DNA of 64,000 bases from Platanthera guangdongensis (lineage: Eukaryota > Streptophyta > Magnoliopsida > Asparagales > Orchidaceae). The notes below the pieces were generated by a model, which was not told the DNA's origin, made no database searches, and saw nothing but the letters and a program-made list of their open reading frames with translations. Of this stretch, positions 23,039 to 60,353 are shown in pieces. Each line of letters opens with the position of its first letter. Position 1 is the first letter of the stretch. Location of the stretch: positions 180,052,375 to 180,116,374 of the forward strand of contig CM077150.1 in NCBI GenBank assembly GCA_039583875.1, written 5' to 3'. The position numbers and the translations under genes were made by a program.

Positions 23039-24350
23039 GCGGGTACGGTTCCTCCTAACCCGTTGCTCACACCGCCCTATCACCTTAAGACATGGGCGCG
23101 GGTCAAACTTCCCCGAGTCCCAAACCGATCACACACTTCACATAACCCAGTTATGTGCAAGTTGGCTCCCAGGCCACCATGTTGGCAGAATCACGCATCT
23201 GCCCAGTTTTCTGAGTGCACCTTAGAGTTAGTCCCCAAGTCTCCCTGTTGCAATCTACCGTGTAGAAAACCCAAAAAACAAACATCTGCACGGAGTCTTC
23301 TCCGGCCATTCATGCAATGCAACATCACCGATCCAGACCAACTTGTCCGGGTAGGCTTCAGACATCATGCCTATGTCCGTTTCTCGATTACGGACTCTAC
23401 TTGCTAAATAATGGGGACTATTCATGTCTACCCGAAGGAACGCCTCACAATCACCGCAAACTCGCGAGAGCGGGCTTCCTATGCAAAGGAACGGTGGACT
23501 TCACATGTCCTATGATGATAATCATTACCCTAGCATTCCTCTTTGGCGTCATGGAAATCTATGCGGATGAAAAGCACCACAATGTCCTCGCCTTCGTAGA
23601 TCCGAAGTCGGCTTGCGATTTGGGGCTCTAAAGCTCCGCCGGCGGCCAGATATATCTCCCTTCTTCTTCCTTGCTCTCCCCTCTCTCTAGAACTCTAGAA
23701 AGAGAATAACCCAAAGAGAATGAGGGCTTTCAACCATATTCCCCGGTATAACACAGCAAGAATAGCCCTAAATCGTTGGATCCCAAAATAAGGAAACAAA
23801 CGTCCACGATTCGAGCTTGAAATCCAAAACCTGGGCCGAACACGGCTTGTGACACGCCCGTGTCCAAGGCCGTGTGTCCCATTTGACGTCGAAACCGTCG
23901 CGTCCCAAAAAGTACACGGACTCTCGACACGCCCGTGTCCGACTTGACACGCCCGTGTCATCCAGTACACAGCCGTGTAGCGGGTTGTGTTCCTCCATCA
24001 ACACAGGACCAACACCAACCCATGAAGGACACAGGTATTGGATACGCCCGTATTCCAAATGACACGCCCGTGTCATACCCGAACATGCCTGGGCTCCAGG
24101 CCATGTTTCTGCCCCAACTCAACTCAGCCAACTACCAGAGTAGGACATGGCCTGGGACACGCCCGTGTCGCAGGCCGTGTTCGCTGCTCGACGATTGTCG
24201 ACTGAAATTTGTCAACCACACGGCCATTGTCGAACCCGAGCACGATACGCCCCTGGGACACGCCCATGTCCCAGGCCGTGTGCCCCCTGCCAAATTCCAA
24301 ACTTGGCTCAAATCGCCATCCGTCATTGTTTTGAGTTTCGAGGAGTTACA
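23039..24350 (-). mobile_element. Element A 3' LTR, truncated
   Basis: It starts on the minus strand with TGTAACTCCTCGAAAC at 24350. It contains ACACGGGCGTGTC-type words (23840-24290) and aligns along its length with 57457-58767 of the 5' LTR. At 23039 homology ends; the 5' LTR continues about 770 bases further (excluding the 5S array), so that much is missing here. Confidence 0.8.
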
Positions 24351-24413
24351 ACTCTGTCCATCTTAAAAGAATTTTGTCCCGAAATTACATAAAGCAAAGA
24401 TAAAAAACAAAGC

Positions 24414-55127: not shown

Positions 55128-55141
55128 GGGCTCTGATACCA
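55128..55141 (-). other. Element A primer binding site (initiator Met tRNA)
   Basis: TGGTATCAGAGCCC on the minus strand, three bases after the LTR end (GTTACA at 55145-55150, complement). It matches the common plant site exactly. Confidence 0.9.
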
Positions 55142-56128
55142 AATTGTAACACCACCTATTCGTTGCATAGCATATAACAGTAGGTCTGGCCGGGGCCCAA
55201 CGCCATATACCACAGACAGACCGGAAGGTTACTCAATGGAAACCATCCAACTAAGAATCAACGTCCTACACAGAGTGCATTCTAGCGGAAGTAATTTAAA
55301 AGTTACAATAAAATAGAACCCCGCCAAAAGCATGAATGTCCACTAAAGAAACCCAGAAGGAATAAACGTACAATACACAAGTACTTGGCCTTATGGCCTT
55401 ACAATAGTATACTCAAATTAAAGTGTTTTCCAAACCTCGGCACGCAGGCCGGTCACACATGAATAATACAAGTAAACATTTATTTTTAGGCCTTCGAGGG
55501 CCGGCTCACCAACATGGGCTTTTGCCTGCTATTTACCACTTGGCTCCGCAGCACCTGCAAGCAACAATCCACCGCAACGATGACAAACAAAAGCAATGGT
55601 CAACCATGCTGACCAAATTATAACAACCCCGACCCCAAACTTGGGTCGGCGATGCTCCTTCCCTGCACTTTCTTAGCATAACCAAGAAGTATAGTGTAAA
55701 ACACTTCATCACAGGCGTGGGCTCGCACGGCCACACACCCTGTGCTCTCAGGGCACATTCAAGGTGAACACGGTCAAAGTCCGCTGACTCACCACCACCC
55801 TCTGGGCGGTAATATCTTGTTAGCATTATGGTCTTTCTGGCCAATGCCTAAGTGTAACATCCCCTGGGCCATCCGTGGGCCGCAGCCCACTAGGCCTCCG
55901 TTAGATCGTTACCGGGATGCAGCCCAAGCGCCCCAAACCCTCTCCCTCCACAGGCGGGTTGTTGGTGGTCACAACCTCCCTTTAATGAGTGAAATTCTCC
56001 CGTTAAGCGGACTACACGGGGACTTCCCAGGAGGTCACCCATCACAGGAGTTCTCCAGCCCGAGCACGCTTAACTATGGAGTTCTTTCAACTCTCATCAC
56101 CAATTAAGCTTAATTGGTGATGAGAGTT

Positions 56129-56208
56129 GAAAGAACTCCATAGTTAAGCGTGCTCGGGCTGGAGAACTCCTGTGATGGGTGACCTCCTGGGAAGTCCCCG
56201 TGTAGTCC
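56129..56208 (+). ncRNA. 5S rRNA-derived sequence in unit 2
   Basis: GAACTCCATAGTTAAGCGTG continues to GATGGGTGACCTCCTGGGAA and CCCCGTGT. Box A, intermediate element and box C of the internal Pol III promoter are all recognisable. It corresponds to the 3' two-thirds of plant 5S rRNA; the 5' part and the true 3' end are replaced, so it is not a ribosomal gene. Equivalent segments occur in units 1, 4, 5 and 6; unit 3 lacks box A. Confidence 0.8.
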
Positions 56209-56364
56209 GCTTAACGGGAGAATTTCACTCATTAAAGGGAGGTTGTGGCCACCAACAACCCGCCTGTGGAGGGAGAGGGGTTGGGGCGCTTGGGCTACAC
56301 CCCGGTAACGATCTAACGGAGGCCTAGTGGGCTGCGACCCACGGACGGCCCAGGGGACGTTATA

Positions 56365-56383
56365 ATAAAAGTGCACTTTTTAT
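56365..56383. repeat. Palindromic linker with T runs on both strands
   Basis: ATAAAAGTGCACTTTTTAT joins units 2 and 3. It offers five T to rightward and four T to leftward transcripts, both enough for Pol III termination. A related linker ATAAAAAGTGCACTTATAT joins units 4 and 5 at 56848-56866. Confidence 0.8.
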
Positions 56384-58767
56384 TGTAACGTCCCCTTGGC
56401 CGTTCGTGGGCCTTAAGCCCACTAGGCCTCCGTTAGACCGTTACCGGGTTGCAACACAAGCACCCCAACACCTCTCCCTCCACAGGAGCGTTGTTGGTGG
56501 CCACAACCTCCTTTTGTTGAGTGAAATTCTCTCGTTAAGCATGCAGCACGGGGAATTCCCAGGAGGTCACCCATCCTAGTACTTCTCCAGCTCAATTGGT
56601 GATGAGAGTTGAAAGAACTCCATAGTTAAGCGTGCTTGGGCTAGAGAAGTCCTGGGATGGGTGACCTCTTAGGAAGACCCCGTGTTGTCCGCTTAATGGG
56701 AGAATTTCACTCATCAAAGGGAGGCTGTGGCCACCAACAACCCGCCTGTGGAGGGAGAGGGGTTAGGGTGCTTGGGCTGTAGCCCGGTAACGGTCTAACG
56801 GAGGCCTAGTGGGTTTAAGGGCCACGGACGACCCATGGGACGTTACAATAAAAAGTGCACTTATATTATAACGTCCCCTGGGCTGTCCGTGGGCTGTAAC
56901 CCACTAGGACTCCGTTAGATCGTTACCGGGCTGCAGCCCAAGCACCCCAACACCTCTCCCTCCATAGGCGGGTTTTTGGTGGCCACAGCCTCTCTTTGAT
57001 GAGTGAAATTCTCCCGTTAAGCGGACAACATGGGGACTTCCCAGGAGGTCACCCATCCTAGGAGTTCTCCAGCCCGAACACGCTTAACTATGAAGTTCTT
57101 TCAACTTTCATCACCAATTGAGCTGCAAATCAATTAGTGATGAGAGTTGAAAGAACTCCATAGTTAAGCGTGCTCGGGCTGGAGAAGTCTTGGGATGGGT
57201 GACCTCCTGGTAAGTCCCCATACTGTCCACTTAACGGGATAATTTCACACATCAAAGGGATGCTGTGGCCACCAACAACCCGCCTGTGGAGGGAGAGGGG
57301 TTGGGGTGCTTGGGCTGCAGCCCGCTAACGTTCTAACGGAGGCCCAGTGGGCTGTGGCCCACGGACGGCCCAGGGGACGTTACACTAAGACCCTCTATCT
57401 ATGCCAACGGCAAGTACCAAGTACCTTTAGGTCGCTTTAACCGAACGACATAGATCGGGTACGGTTCCACCTAATCCGTTGCTCACACCGCCCTGTCACC
57501 TTAGGACATGCGCGCAGGTCAAACTTCCCTGAGTCCCAAACCGATCACACACCTCACATAACCCAGTTATGTGCAAGTTGGCTCCCAAGCCACCATGTTT
57601 GAAGAATCACGCATCTGCAAAGTTTTCCGGGTGCACCTTGGAGTTAATCCCCAAGGCTCCCTGTTGCAATCTACTGCGTAGAAAACCCGAAAAACAAACA
57701 TCCGTACGGAGTCTTCTTCGGCCATTCATGCAATACAACATCACCGATCCAGACCAACTTGTCCGGGTAGGCTTCACACATCATACCTATGTCCGTTTCT
57801 CGATTACGGACTCTACATGCTAAACAACGGGGACTATTCATGTCCACCAGAAGGAACGCCTCACACTCACCGCAAACTCGCGAGAGCGGGCTTCCTATGC
57901 AAAGTAAAAGAGGACTTCACATGTACTAGGATGAGAATCATTACCCTAGCATTCCTCTTTGGCACCATGGAAATCTATGCGGATGAAATGCACTGCAATG
58001 TCCTCGCCTCCGTAGATCCGAAGTCGGCTCGCGATTTGGGGCTCCGAAGCTCCGCCGGCGGCCTGATCTATCTCCCTTCTTCTTCCTTGCTCTCCCCTCT
58101 CTCTAGAACTCTAGAAAGAGAATAACCCAAAGATAATGATGGTTTTCAACCATATTCCCGGGTATAACACAGCAGGAACATCCCTGAACCGTTGGATCCC
58201 AAAATAAGGAAACAGACGACCACGATTCGGGCTTGAAATCCAAAACCTGGGACGAACACGGCTTGTGCCACGCCCGTGTCCAAGGCCGTGTGCCCTATTC
58301 AACGCCAAAATCCTCGCGTCCCGAAAAGTACACGGGCTCTTGACACGCCCGTGTCCAACTTGACACACCCGTGTCATCCATTACATGGCCATGTAGCGGG
58401 CCATGTTCCTCCATCAACACAGGACCAACACCAACCCGTGAAGGACACTGGTATTGGACACGCCCGTGTCACAAATGACATGCCTGTGTCATACCAGAAC
58501 ATTCCTGGGCTCCAGGCCGTGTTTCTCCCCCAACTCAACTGGGCCAACTACCCGAGTAGGACACGGCCTGGGACACGCCCGTGTCTCAGGCCGTGTTCGC
58601 TGCTCGACGATCGTCGACTGAAATTCATCGACCACACGGCCATCGTTGAACCCGAGCACGACACGCACCTGGGACACGACGGTGTCCCAGGCCATGTGCC
58701 CCCTGCCAAATTCCAAACTTGGCTCAAAATGCCACCCGTCGCTCTTTTGAGTTTCGGGGCGTTACAG

Positions 58768-60353
58768 CTCCTTCCCTGCATTTTAGTAGCATAGACAAAC
58801 AATAAAGTGAAAGTACAACATAAGCACACTTCACCACAGGTGTAGGCCCGTACAGCCACACACCCCGTGCTCTTAGGGCACTTACTCGGTGAAGCCGCTC
58901 CGAACCCGGTCCGTCCCGCAACTCCACCACGGCCCCCAGGACGGCAAATAATGTGAGCATTTAGTTCTTTCAGCTGCAGCCTAGACTCTCTCTCCAAGTT
59001 ATCGGTAAGTCCCATGTACCTTAGGTCGCTTTAACCGAAGCAAATAGAGTGGGTAGAGTTCCACCTGCCCATTGCTCACTTCTCCACGACAATTTAGCCA
59101 TCGGCGTGGGCCAAGTTTCCCCCACTCCTAAAGTATCGATCATATAATCGTACATAACCCGGTTATGTACACGGCTGTCTCCCAGGCCACCTATACACCA
59201 AAAATTCGATTCTGCCCAGATTTTCGGGTGCACCTTGGAGTTAATCCCCAAGACTCCTTGTTGCAATATACCACGTAGAAAACCCGAAAACAACCATTAG
59301 CACGGAGTCTTATCCGGCTATTCATGCATAATGAAACATCACCGATCCAGAAGAACTTGTTCGGGTAGGCTTCACACACCATGCCTATGTCCGTACTATG
59401 ATTCCATACTCTATATGCAAGATTACAGGGACTATTCATGTCCACCCGAAGGAAATACAACATACTCACCGCACACTCGCGAGAGCGGGTTTCCTATGTA
59501 AAAAGGAAGAGGACTTCACATGTCCAAGAAGAGAATCGTTGCTCTAGAGATTCGCTTTGGCGCCATGGAAAACTAGCCGGATGAAAAATACCGCAACGAC
59601 CTCGCCTCCACGGATCTGGACTCGGCTCGCGATTTGCGGATCCGAAGCTCCACCAGCGGCTGGATTCCTCCTTCTCCTTCTTCTTTGCTCTCCCCTCTCT
59701 CTAACTCTTTAGAAAGAGAAAGTTCTAAGAGAAATGAGGGTTTAACCCTCAACTCCCGGCCTTATAACAGCATGGAGATCTCTGGGTTGTTGGATCCTAT
59801 TAGAAGGAAATGAACGGCCATGAATCGCCCTGAAGGGCTAAACACGGCCCGTGACACGCCCGTGTCACAGGCCGTGTCTCGCGATCTGAAAATAATCATC
59901 GAACGCAGAATAGGACACGGGCTCCAACACGCCCGTGTACTGCTTCACATGACCGTATCAGCCTATAACACGCCTGTGTCATGGGCCGTGTCCCTCAAGC
60001 GACATAGGAAACTGTCACTTCCTGACCAGGATACGACAATGAGACATGCCCGTGTAATAACTTGACATACCCGTGTCAGCCTCTGATATGCCCGTGTCCT
60101 GGGCCGCGTACTTCACTCGACACTGCCCTGCCAACATAGAGCAGGGCACGGCCCTGGACACGCCAGTGTCTCAGGCCGTGCACCCGACCTCCAAGGAACA
60201 TCGAATGTATTTCGTCGACAACATAGAAAATCGTCAAACTCGTAACATGACACGGCCATGGACACGCCCATGTCCCAAGCCGTGTGACCCTTATCAGGCC
60301 CCATATTGGCCTTAAGATGCTACCAGATCATTTTCATGTTTTGGGGAGTTACA
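58768..60353 (-). mobile_element. Element B 3' LTR, truncated
   Basis: It starts TGTAACTCCCCAAAAC at 60353 (minus strand) and contains ACACGGGCGTGTC-type words at 59840-60290. It ends at 58768 exactly where the element A LTR begins. The word at its end, GCTCCTTCCCTGCA, occurs about 500 bases inside the element A LTR (55648), so roughly that length of LTR end is missing. It is diverged from the element A LTRs. Confidence 0.75.

Follow-up and report, generated by a model that had tools for sequence, protein, structure and literature searches.

Alternating inverted arrays of 5S-derived units inserted as whole blocks in the genome of the orchid Platanthera guangdongensis

In a 64,000-nucleotide stretch of the Platanthera guangdongensis genome (contig CM077150.1), referred to as the window, we found an array of six alternating inverted 5S-derived units. 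A 5-bp target-site duplication and an empty site confirmed that the whole array is one insertion, and other arrays inserted as whole blocks were found elsewhere in the 4.25-Gb host genome. The window array is best explained as a member of a non-autonomous mobile family that derives from a Cassandra-type LTR, of which it carries the ~70-bp 5S core and the downstream part. As to the origin of the arrays, we give an even chance to a reading in which fold-back at the head copies Cassandra-derived units, the copies are linked through their tails, and an integrase of the LTR-retrotransposon type inserts the arrays once they have formed.

The window array and its target site

The array spans positions 55853-57384 of the window, and its units follow the order -+-+-+. 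It is bordered by the duplication CTAAG (55848-55852 on the left, 57385-57389 on the right). The same window holds a paralogous copy of the flanks that lacks the insert, about 71-72% identical, on the plus strand at about 58767-60353. Joined without the insert, the flanks of the array (GCCTAAGACCCTCT) matched this empty site (GCCT-AGACTCTC). The outermost bases of each unit were set by reading of the sequence. This confirms an earlier sequence-only reading, which had described six strictly alternating inverted units with TG...CA ends and a CTAAG duplication. Its remark that there is no direct pair was inexact, since the units also form ~515-bp head-to-head dimers that follow one another as a direct trimer, with two 19-bp near-palindromic spacers between the dimers.

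All six units carry module A. Unit 1 (55853-56108, minus strand; computed positions of box A, 56064-56075, and box C, 56033-56045) has the outer end TGTAAC and is 97% identical to unit 2 (56109-56364, plus strand; box A 56142-56153, box C 56172-56184). The head joint between them (56092-56125) is a perfect palindrome, TCTCATCACCAATTAAGCTTAATTGGTGATGAGA, that spans the ends of both units. Tail joint 2/3 (56365-56383) is a near-palindromic spacer, ATAAAAGTGCACTTTTTAT, with T-runs on both strands. Unit 3 (56384-56591, minus strand; box C 56565-56577) has lost its head together with box A, a deletion that shortened the middle dimer of the trimer. Unit 4 (56592-56847, plus strand; box A 56624-56635, box C 56654-56666) is separated by the spacer ATAAAAAGTGCACTTATAT of tail joint 4/5 (56848-56866) from unit 5 (56867-57122, minus strand; box A 57078-57089, box C 57047-57059). 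At head joint 5/6, the bases between the aligned units (57123-57129) form a loop of the GCTGCAAA type, and unit 6 (57130-57384, plus strand; box A 57162-57173, box C 57192-57204) closes the array with the outer end GTTACA.

Boxes A and C of the 5S-type Pol III promoter lie 18 nt apart, the published Cassandra spacing (PMC7215508), in five of the six units, with one mismatch in box C of units 1 and 2. The core, which we take to be 5S positions 40-109, covers ~70 bp from the A box to the C box and occupies bases 24-93 of a 256-bp A unit and 21-95 of a 253-bp B unit (one unit each). Against the Rfam 5S model, the window units scored 29.9 bits at best, which is below the gathering threshold of 38; a search of seven other loci gave three matches above it (41.9, 40.9, and 38.5). 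Rfam miRNA models also matched the palindromes at low threshold, none at gathering score, which we attribute to the chance resemblance of hairpins.

The Pol III transcript predicted for unit 2, with its start placed by the 5S spacing we assume, would comprise 290 nt (56092-56381, plus strand), with a predicted hairpin at either end. It would begin with the head-palindrome hairpin, which has 15 bp, and finish in the tail T-run. TTTT occurs within the sense strand of 1 of 159 full units and within the antisense strand of 13 of 159, compared to a Markov expectation of 0.27 per unit. The first TTTT after GTTACA lies within 30 bp in 89 of the 159 full units, and farther away or nowhere in 69. That neighbouring units could pair into long RNA hairpins, as suggested earlier, is possible according to the predicted fold, in which 96% of the bases are paired for units 1/2, 91% for units 5/6, and 85% for units 2/3.

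The window units are 84-97% identical. Relative to a star tree, pairing units 1/2 gained 21.8 log units, pairing 3/4 added 3.1, and pairing 5/6 brought no gain. The alignment has 15 informative columns, four of which group units 1/2 alone, versus 5.8 (2-11) or 8.0 (3-14) in star simulations; the tree is therefore star-like only after units 1/2 have been set apart. These two units look gene-converted. C-to-T changes amount to 13.6% at CHG, 7.2% at CG, and 2.2% at CHH sites, a pattern that points to methylation-related decay. In two pairs outside arrays, CG and CHG were likewise above CHH, so that decay of this type is not specific to the arrays.

Palindromes are unstable and hard to assemble, which speaks for amplification of one inserted dimer in place or for an assembly error. 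We nevertheless consider this explanation extremely improbable. The target sequence is not repeated between the units of the window array, the units differ by 3-16% through largely private changes, and at other loci we observed identical spacers in unrelated surroundings, mixed-module arrays, and separate duplications.

Related arrays in the host genome

Genome loci were taken from the best matches to two queries, for which the best 40 of 1,939 and the best 40 of 3,361 first-look candidates were scored. The 75 loci fetched yielded 64 distinct unit groups. At the loci read, inverted neighbours were present in all 59 groups with at least two units, and 175 of 200 neighbour pairs were inverted, the other 25 having the same orientation. 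The outer array ends read TGTAAC...GTTACA, and whole arrays flanked by 5-bp duplications hold 2-11 units or unit fragments, with mosaics of several modules. Twenty-five arrays were complete at both ends. The duplication was perfect in 14 of them and had one mismatch in five, compared to 0/600 and 11/600, respectively, in a cross-locus control; in the remaining six, two or more of the five flanking bases differ.

A search for further inverted joints, proposed in the sequence-only reading, revealed many independent loci with the same joints and 5-bp duplications, which is the outcome that reading had named for a real element type and the opposite of a genome with direct-repeat copies only. It had offered two alternatives: integration of a multimeric template by an integrase of the retroviral type, or a 5S-derived element in a new foldback form. 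The recurring joints and the duplications of at most one mismatch around 19 of the 25 whole arrays support this interpretation, and both alternatives appear to be true together: the foldback dimer repeats, and preformed multimers are inserted.

The methionine tRNA primer binding site (PBS), TGGTATCAGAGC, would be expected after GTTACA. Its absence had been claimed for the window insert, and we indeed found no match there with up to three mismatches allowed. Within 80 bp of the 206 complete unit tails at the loci read, no tRNA primer site was detected with up to two mismatches; since these loci are the best matches to two queries, PBS-bearing copies may exist elsewhere in the genome. Because the sequence that follows GTTACA is no PBS, tRNA-primed strong-stop DNA was dropped from consideration. 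In Cassandra, a polypurine tract precedes the 3' LTR; read by eye, the bases ahead of TGTAAC in the window array are CACTTTTTAT, with no purine run.

These data bear on the explanation that the units belong to ordinary Cassandra TRIMs with tRNA-primed reverse transcription, and that template switching or the joining of cDNA ends yields inverted multimers as by-products, which an integrase inserts. Cassandra has TG...CA ends, and these agree with the arrays, as do the 5S core and the box spacing. Many plants have TRIMs in tandem arrays, among them a maize array that is flanked by a 5-bp duplication and contains two inverted TRIMs (PMC4717578); template switching has been proposed for Cassandra arrays in the available excerpts of PMC7215508. 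Against this explanation stand the lack of a PBS near the 206 complete tails among the best-match loci, the recurrence of the same two joints, and inversion as the rule between neighbours. We regard it as rather unlikely.

A fold-back or MITE-like DNA transposon would have long inverted repeats and a captured 5S promoter; it would be moved by a transposase and form arrays by recombination between its arms. The overall fold-back shape fits, but both promoter boxes are kept in five of the six window units, and the multi-module mosaics also argue against such an origin. To our knowledge, plant DNA transposon superfamilies have target duplications of lengths other than 5 bp, which counts against it as well. 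Ends of the TGTNR type are common to Ginger elements, but Ginger1 and most Ginger2 elements make 4-bp duplications, with 5 bp for TDD-4/5, according to the accessible part of PMC2836005. We consider a DNA transposon decidedly improbable.

Exact unit patterns were absent from viral_contigs and genome_contigs, and a distant blastn search gave no match in plasmids and phages; all these collections are without plant DNA. In protein searches, the accidental ORF of a unit matched one orchid protein through a common antisense 5S stretch, and the sense frame of a unit had no match. Separately, a gypsy gag ORF gave 12 protein matches, of which 10 were named, all ten from Platanthera zijinensis with 62-79% identity.

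Head joints, tail joints, and a proposed copying route

Two near-palindromic joints, head and tail, recur with the same spacers at unrelated loci. L001-L045, minus six loci dropped as duplicates, contain 44 tail pairs, 36 of them with the tail motif, and 68 head pairs, 35 of them with a recognised head motif; 7 of these 35 heads and 6 of the 36 tails are perfect palindromes today. The terminal module was the same in 67 of 74 head-joined pairs (seven were mixed), versus 54.7 (sd 2.5) in within-array shuffles, none of which reached this value in 5000 trials. Among tail-joined pairs, 29 of 47 shared the module, with 33.5 (sd 2.3) after shuffling. The comparison left out 53 of 264 units without an assignable module. 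B arms showed a median difference of 0.8% when head-joined (n = 28), 4.4% when tail-joined (n = 10), 3.6% when not neighbours but within one array (n = 68), and 6.1% between arrays (n = 3986). Since B units are closer within an array (3.6-4.4%) than between arrays, tail partners are not freely drawn from the whole family.

Head arms might be alike through post-insertion gene conversion in the palindrome instead of fold-back copying, with arrays made from joined separate units. Units 1/2 of the window look converted, and the short head loop would favour conversion across the head joint. However, B head arms are more alike than other units of the same arrays, the two arms have stayed different where L003 and L006 join A to B at the head, and the joining orientation is non-random. 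We judge conversion to be an unlikely source of the likeness.

We also dropped the idea of a single rolling hairpin that makes a whole array out of one template, as modules are mixed and the mean distance of A units is 0.103 within and 0.101 between arrays. Two results point against dropping it: 33 of 129 units, versus 3.9 expected, have their nearest relative in the same array, and B units differ by 0.084 within versus 0.123 between arrays. Part of this within-array closeness is due to head partners.

For the favoured fold-back copying, we infer the following route. One unit would correspond to one Pol III transcript, with the head palindrome at its 5' end and the tail palindrome with the T-run terminator at its 3' end. 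The 3' tails of two transcripts would anneal and each prime reverse transcription on the other, so that tail joints would be mixed. At the head, the cDNA 3' end would fold back and self-prime the second strand, giving head joints with identical arms, and repeated tail pairing and head fold-back would build alternating arrays. A borrowed LTR-retrotransposon integrase would then trim the outer ends to TG...CA and insert the array with a 5-bp duplication; the model leaves the removal of the tail half-spacer unexplained. Also counting against this route are the mixed head pairs, the head pairs in which no motif was recognised, the small share of perfect palindromes, the limited mixing of tail partners across the family, the neighbours of like orientation, and the six complete arrays with two or more flanking mismatches. 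Because head joints would be copied and tail joints mixed, the mechanism is directly testable.

More tentatively, and with some doubt on our part, the arrays may represent a retroelement class without LTRs and tRNA primer, characterized by palindromic Pol III transcript ends, tail-primed reverse transcription, head fold-back, and variable alternating concatemers that an integrase inserts whole, the transcript ends being the array joints. If the route is true, a non-coding retroelement replicates without tRNA primer or direct LTRs by means of palindromic transcript ends and borrowed enzymes. Inverted 5S-promoter hairpins would then lie ready-made in the plant genome in large numbers, possibly in thousands, and might serve as a source of double-stranded RNA; the route would also suggest how inverted multimers like the one illustrated for maize could form.

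Comparison with known systems

The arrays share with Cassandra the ~70-bp 5S core, boxes A and C at a distance of 18 nt, a non-coding nature, and multimers (PMC7215508, available excerpts; PMC10853983, an LTR survey). TG...CA ends are a further common feature. Cassandra has two direct LTRs around an internal domain and a methionine tRNA PBS, whereas the window array has inverted units with only the 19-bp spacers between dimers, and the 206 complete tails lack a PBS. The Cassandra 5S core lies within 25-75% of the LTR (PMC10853983, section 14), whereas here it is near the unit edge, at bases 24-93 of ~256. Long tandem arrays of Cassandra are direct in the excerpts of PMC7215508, and the present ones are mostly inverted. 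Recurring near-palindromic joints and exchangeable terminal modules further set our arrays apart.

The nearest precedent we found is the maize array with its two inverted TRIMs (PMC4717578). Like our arrays, the tandemly arrayed TRIMs of that study, especially the Zma-SMART array in the legend to Fig. 2C, consist of several units; one of the published arrays is inverted, and a single 5-bp duplication is given for the whole array. A typical SMART in that study is built from an internal part and two LTRs, a structure not seen here, and 5S is absent from TRIM families other than Cassandra, whereas our arrays are 5S-derived. Inversion in tandem-arrayed TRIMs is represented by one illustrated example; in our arrays it is the rule.

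Fold-back elements and MITEs resemble the arrays in their long inverted arms and hairpin potential. Unlike them, our arrays combine 5-bp duplications and TG...CA ends with a Pol III-type promoter and several dimers per insertion. In parvoviruses, rolling-hairpin replication with palindromic ends produces alternating head-head and tail-tail concatemers; this is an analogy only, as our arrays have no viral genes and an integrase-type insertion. With LTR-retrotransposon-type integration, finally, they share both the TG...CA ends and the 5-bp duplication around the whole insertion.

Structure and setting of the insert

The insert at 55853-57384 is composed of six 5S-derived units of ~255 bp each (unit 3, ~208 bp) in the order -+-+-+, and CTAAG borders it at either end. 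The same window contains a diverged paralogue of both flanks (~58767-60353), which lacks the insert and runs continuously across the target. The sequence-only reading of six alternating units within one 5-bp duplication was thus confirmed. The empty site is one copy of a ~1.4-kb repeat found at 57388-58766, 58983-60353, and 23040-24354; the array is flanked by direct copies, and the copies are 71.6% and 90.6% identical to its right flank. No further unit copies were detected by Blast in the window outside the insert.

Both 5S promoter boxes are present in five of the six units, spaced by 18 nt as PMC7215508 describes for Cassandra and in agreement with the 5S-type promoter noticed from the sequence; unit 3 lacks the head (the promoter-bearing end) and box A. 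All window units scored under the Rfam gathering threshold, and a 5S match above it was obtained in three of seven other loci searched. A plant 5S sequence aligned over its bases 40-109 in one module-A unit and 40-114 in one module-B unit of locus L003, a stretch that fits the ~70-bp core common to all Cassandras of PMC10853983. The insert contains no tRNA primer-binding site (PBS) at up to three mismatches on either strand, in line with the sequence-only reading.

The head-to-head joint of units 1/2 is a perfect palindrome, and the tail-to-tail joints of units 2/3 and 4/5 are 19-bp near-palindromic spacers around GTGCAC. Viewed as blocks, the insert is made of three directly repeated head-to-head dimers separated by two spacers. 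Since neither CTAAG nor target sequence occurs between the dimers, the array was not grown in place from one inserted dimer.

Measured against their common majority base, the six window units each differ by ~6%. With a plant substitution rate of 1.3e-8, this gives, as a rough figure, an age of a few million years. Changes from C to T relative to the majority base were most frequent in CHG (22/162), followed by CG (11/152) and CHH (12/557), which suggests past methylation; in two pairs outside arrays, CG instead ranked above CHG.

Window region 29572-53426 carries three LTR-like copies (~97-98%; at about 29.7, 40.5, and 52.1 kb, spacing 10.8-11.6 kb) with duplicated retrotransposon ORFs between them, an arrangement resembling a tandem LTR-internal-LTR-internal-LTR array. 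In the window, gag, protease, reverse transcriptase, RNase H, or integrase families are matched by five retrotransposon ORFs, one of them by Ty3_capsid. At 55130-55150 (- strand), GTTACAATT precedes a perfect methionine PBS, TGGTATCAGAGC, whose start on the - strand is 55141. This apparently marks where the LTR of another retrotransposon ends, ~0.7 kb to the left of the 5S array, and the array may sit within that neighbouring LTR.

Inverted arrays in the host genome

The host assembly (4,245,561,818 bases, 274 contigs) was searched with one module-A and one module-B unit, the modules being exchangeable terminal parts of units; all six window units carry module A. These gave 1,939 and 3,361 first-look candidates, respectively, with 40 scored in each case; the totals are candidates and not copy counts. 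From loci L001-L075, overlapping loci were merged, single weak hits (≤100 bits) were left out, and L005 was removed as a duplicate, being 99% identical to L004 including the flanks. This resulted in 64 distinct unit groups, with fragments counted as units. The sample is non-random and some arrays are cut, because the loci are best matches to two queries, many with only 1.5 kb of flank.

All 59 groups of at least two units contained an inverted neighbour pair; the other five were single units. Neighbour pairs were -+ in 104 cases, +- in 71, -- in 13, and ++ in 12. In 25 groups both outer units were complete with tails outward, and their 5-bp flanks were identical in 14, had one mismatch in 5, and two or more in 6, compared to 0 identical and 11 with one mismatch among 600 cross-locus pairings. 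When 20 of these arrays were examined in an earlier pass, 11 had identical flanks, 5 had one mismatch, and 4 failed (control, 0 and 7 of 380). Flanks with no more than one mismatch enclose 19 arrays, which range from 2 to 11 units and in length from 518 to 2,454 bp. Thus, the genome search suggested by the sequence-only reading revealed many loci with inverted joints and 5-bp duplications.

The flanks failed in L007, L035, L038, and L040 (earlier pass, all inspected) and in L054 and L062. Half-spacer-like sequence ahead of the left TGTAAC in L007 and L038, and a half spacer beyond the right end of L035, suggest that these three were cut at a tail joint; nothing clear was found in the L040 flanks. 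In L004/L005, L010, L013, L019, and L036, unit groups stop at or near the head centre beside flanking DNA, not at a tail end.

In one A/B pair of L003, the inner parts are 88% alike (168/192) and the outer ~60 bp 72% on gapped alignment (38/53). At least two more terminal modules were seen by eye, one in L067 (2020-2080 and 2480-2550) and L048 (1160-1230), the other in L066 (2010-2100). They share the GTTACA end, and the tail spacer is of one type after A and B and, in the loci checked (L048, L066), after these modules too. The arrays are mosaics of modules, such as B A B B in L003 and L006, A A B B in L018, and B A B B A B in L015.

Head joints, tail joints, and the probable copying route

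After exclusion of 53 of 264 units without assignable module, 67 of 74 head-joined pairs had the same module (within-array shuffles averaged 54.7 and reached 67 in 0/5,000), as did 29 of 47 tail-joined pairs versus 33.5 expected (as low in 217/5,000 shuffles). The first pass on L001-L045 gave 43/50 and 16/31. B units differed by a median of 0.8% across head joints (n = 28), 4.4% across tail joints (n = 10), 3.6% when they shared an array without being adjacent (n = 68), and 6.1% when they came from different arrays (n = 3,986); B blocks of a single array resemble one another somewhat more than they resemble B units elsewhere. The corresponding values for A units were 6.1% (n = 26), 14.4% (n = 10), 9.1% (n = 68), and 8.2% (n = 4,172). 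Judged by these module counts and arm differences, a head-to-head dimer has the behaviour of a block copied from itself, and different blocks meet at tail joints. Conversion after insertion may add to the likeness of head arms. Window units 1 and 2 have a common stem branch, after which they diverge little, and their root-to-tip length resembles that of units 4 to 6.

Joint motifs were scored in L001-L045 minus six loci: 36 of 44 tail pairs showed the tail motif, mostly with the core GTGCAC, and 35 of 68 head pairs showed the head motif; 6/36 and 7/35, respectively, are perfect palindromes today. Among head cores, AGCTGCAGCT occurs most often (8), and TGCA lies within at least 20 of the 35 heads; window units 1/2 have AAGCTT in its place. 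Same-orientation neighbours in L012, L021, and L032 meet precisely at TGCA, where a tail half is fused to a head half (L017 nearly so), as expected of strand switching or deletion at a shared core.

No methionine PBS (≤2 mismatches) was found within 80 bp of 206 complete unit tails, 118 of which are followed by a half spacer and 88 are not. Among 159 full units, which are related so that counts are not independent, TTTT occurs inside one in sense and 13 in antisense (first-order Markov expectation ~27% per unit), and the first TTTT lies ≤30 bp past GTTACA in 89 and not in 69. With its start placed by 5S spacing, the unit-2 transcript is predicted to span both palindromes completely, beginning at the outer edge of the head one and stopping at the outer edge of the tail one, and to carry a hairpin at either end.

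The likeliest route is that reverse transcription would be primed tail to tail, the second strand would be made by fold-back at the head, and whole arrays would then be inserted in an integrase-type manner. This route, with its putative transcription, priming, and trimming, fits the palindromes at both ends, the copied heads and mixed tails, the alternating units, the lack of a tRNA primer, and the integrase-like insertion of whole arrays; the alternation, joints, module statistics, and duplications were themselves observed.

Comparison with known TRIM arrays

Where PMC7215508 describes Cassandra arrays they are direct, and 'inverted' there concerns primers and PCR; the word is absent from the main text of PMC10853983. 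A literature search for inverted Cassandra arrays, judged mostly by listing, brought nothing else to notice, which does not establish absence from print. Tandem-array TRIMs are reported in PMC4717578, whose Fig. 2 legend mentions one maize array 'with two inverted TRIMs' and the TSD CTTCA. This maize array, from a family without 5S sequence, is a genuine precedent for inverted multimers that entered by a single insertion.
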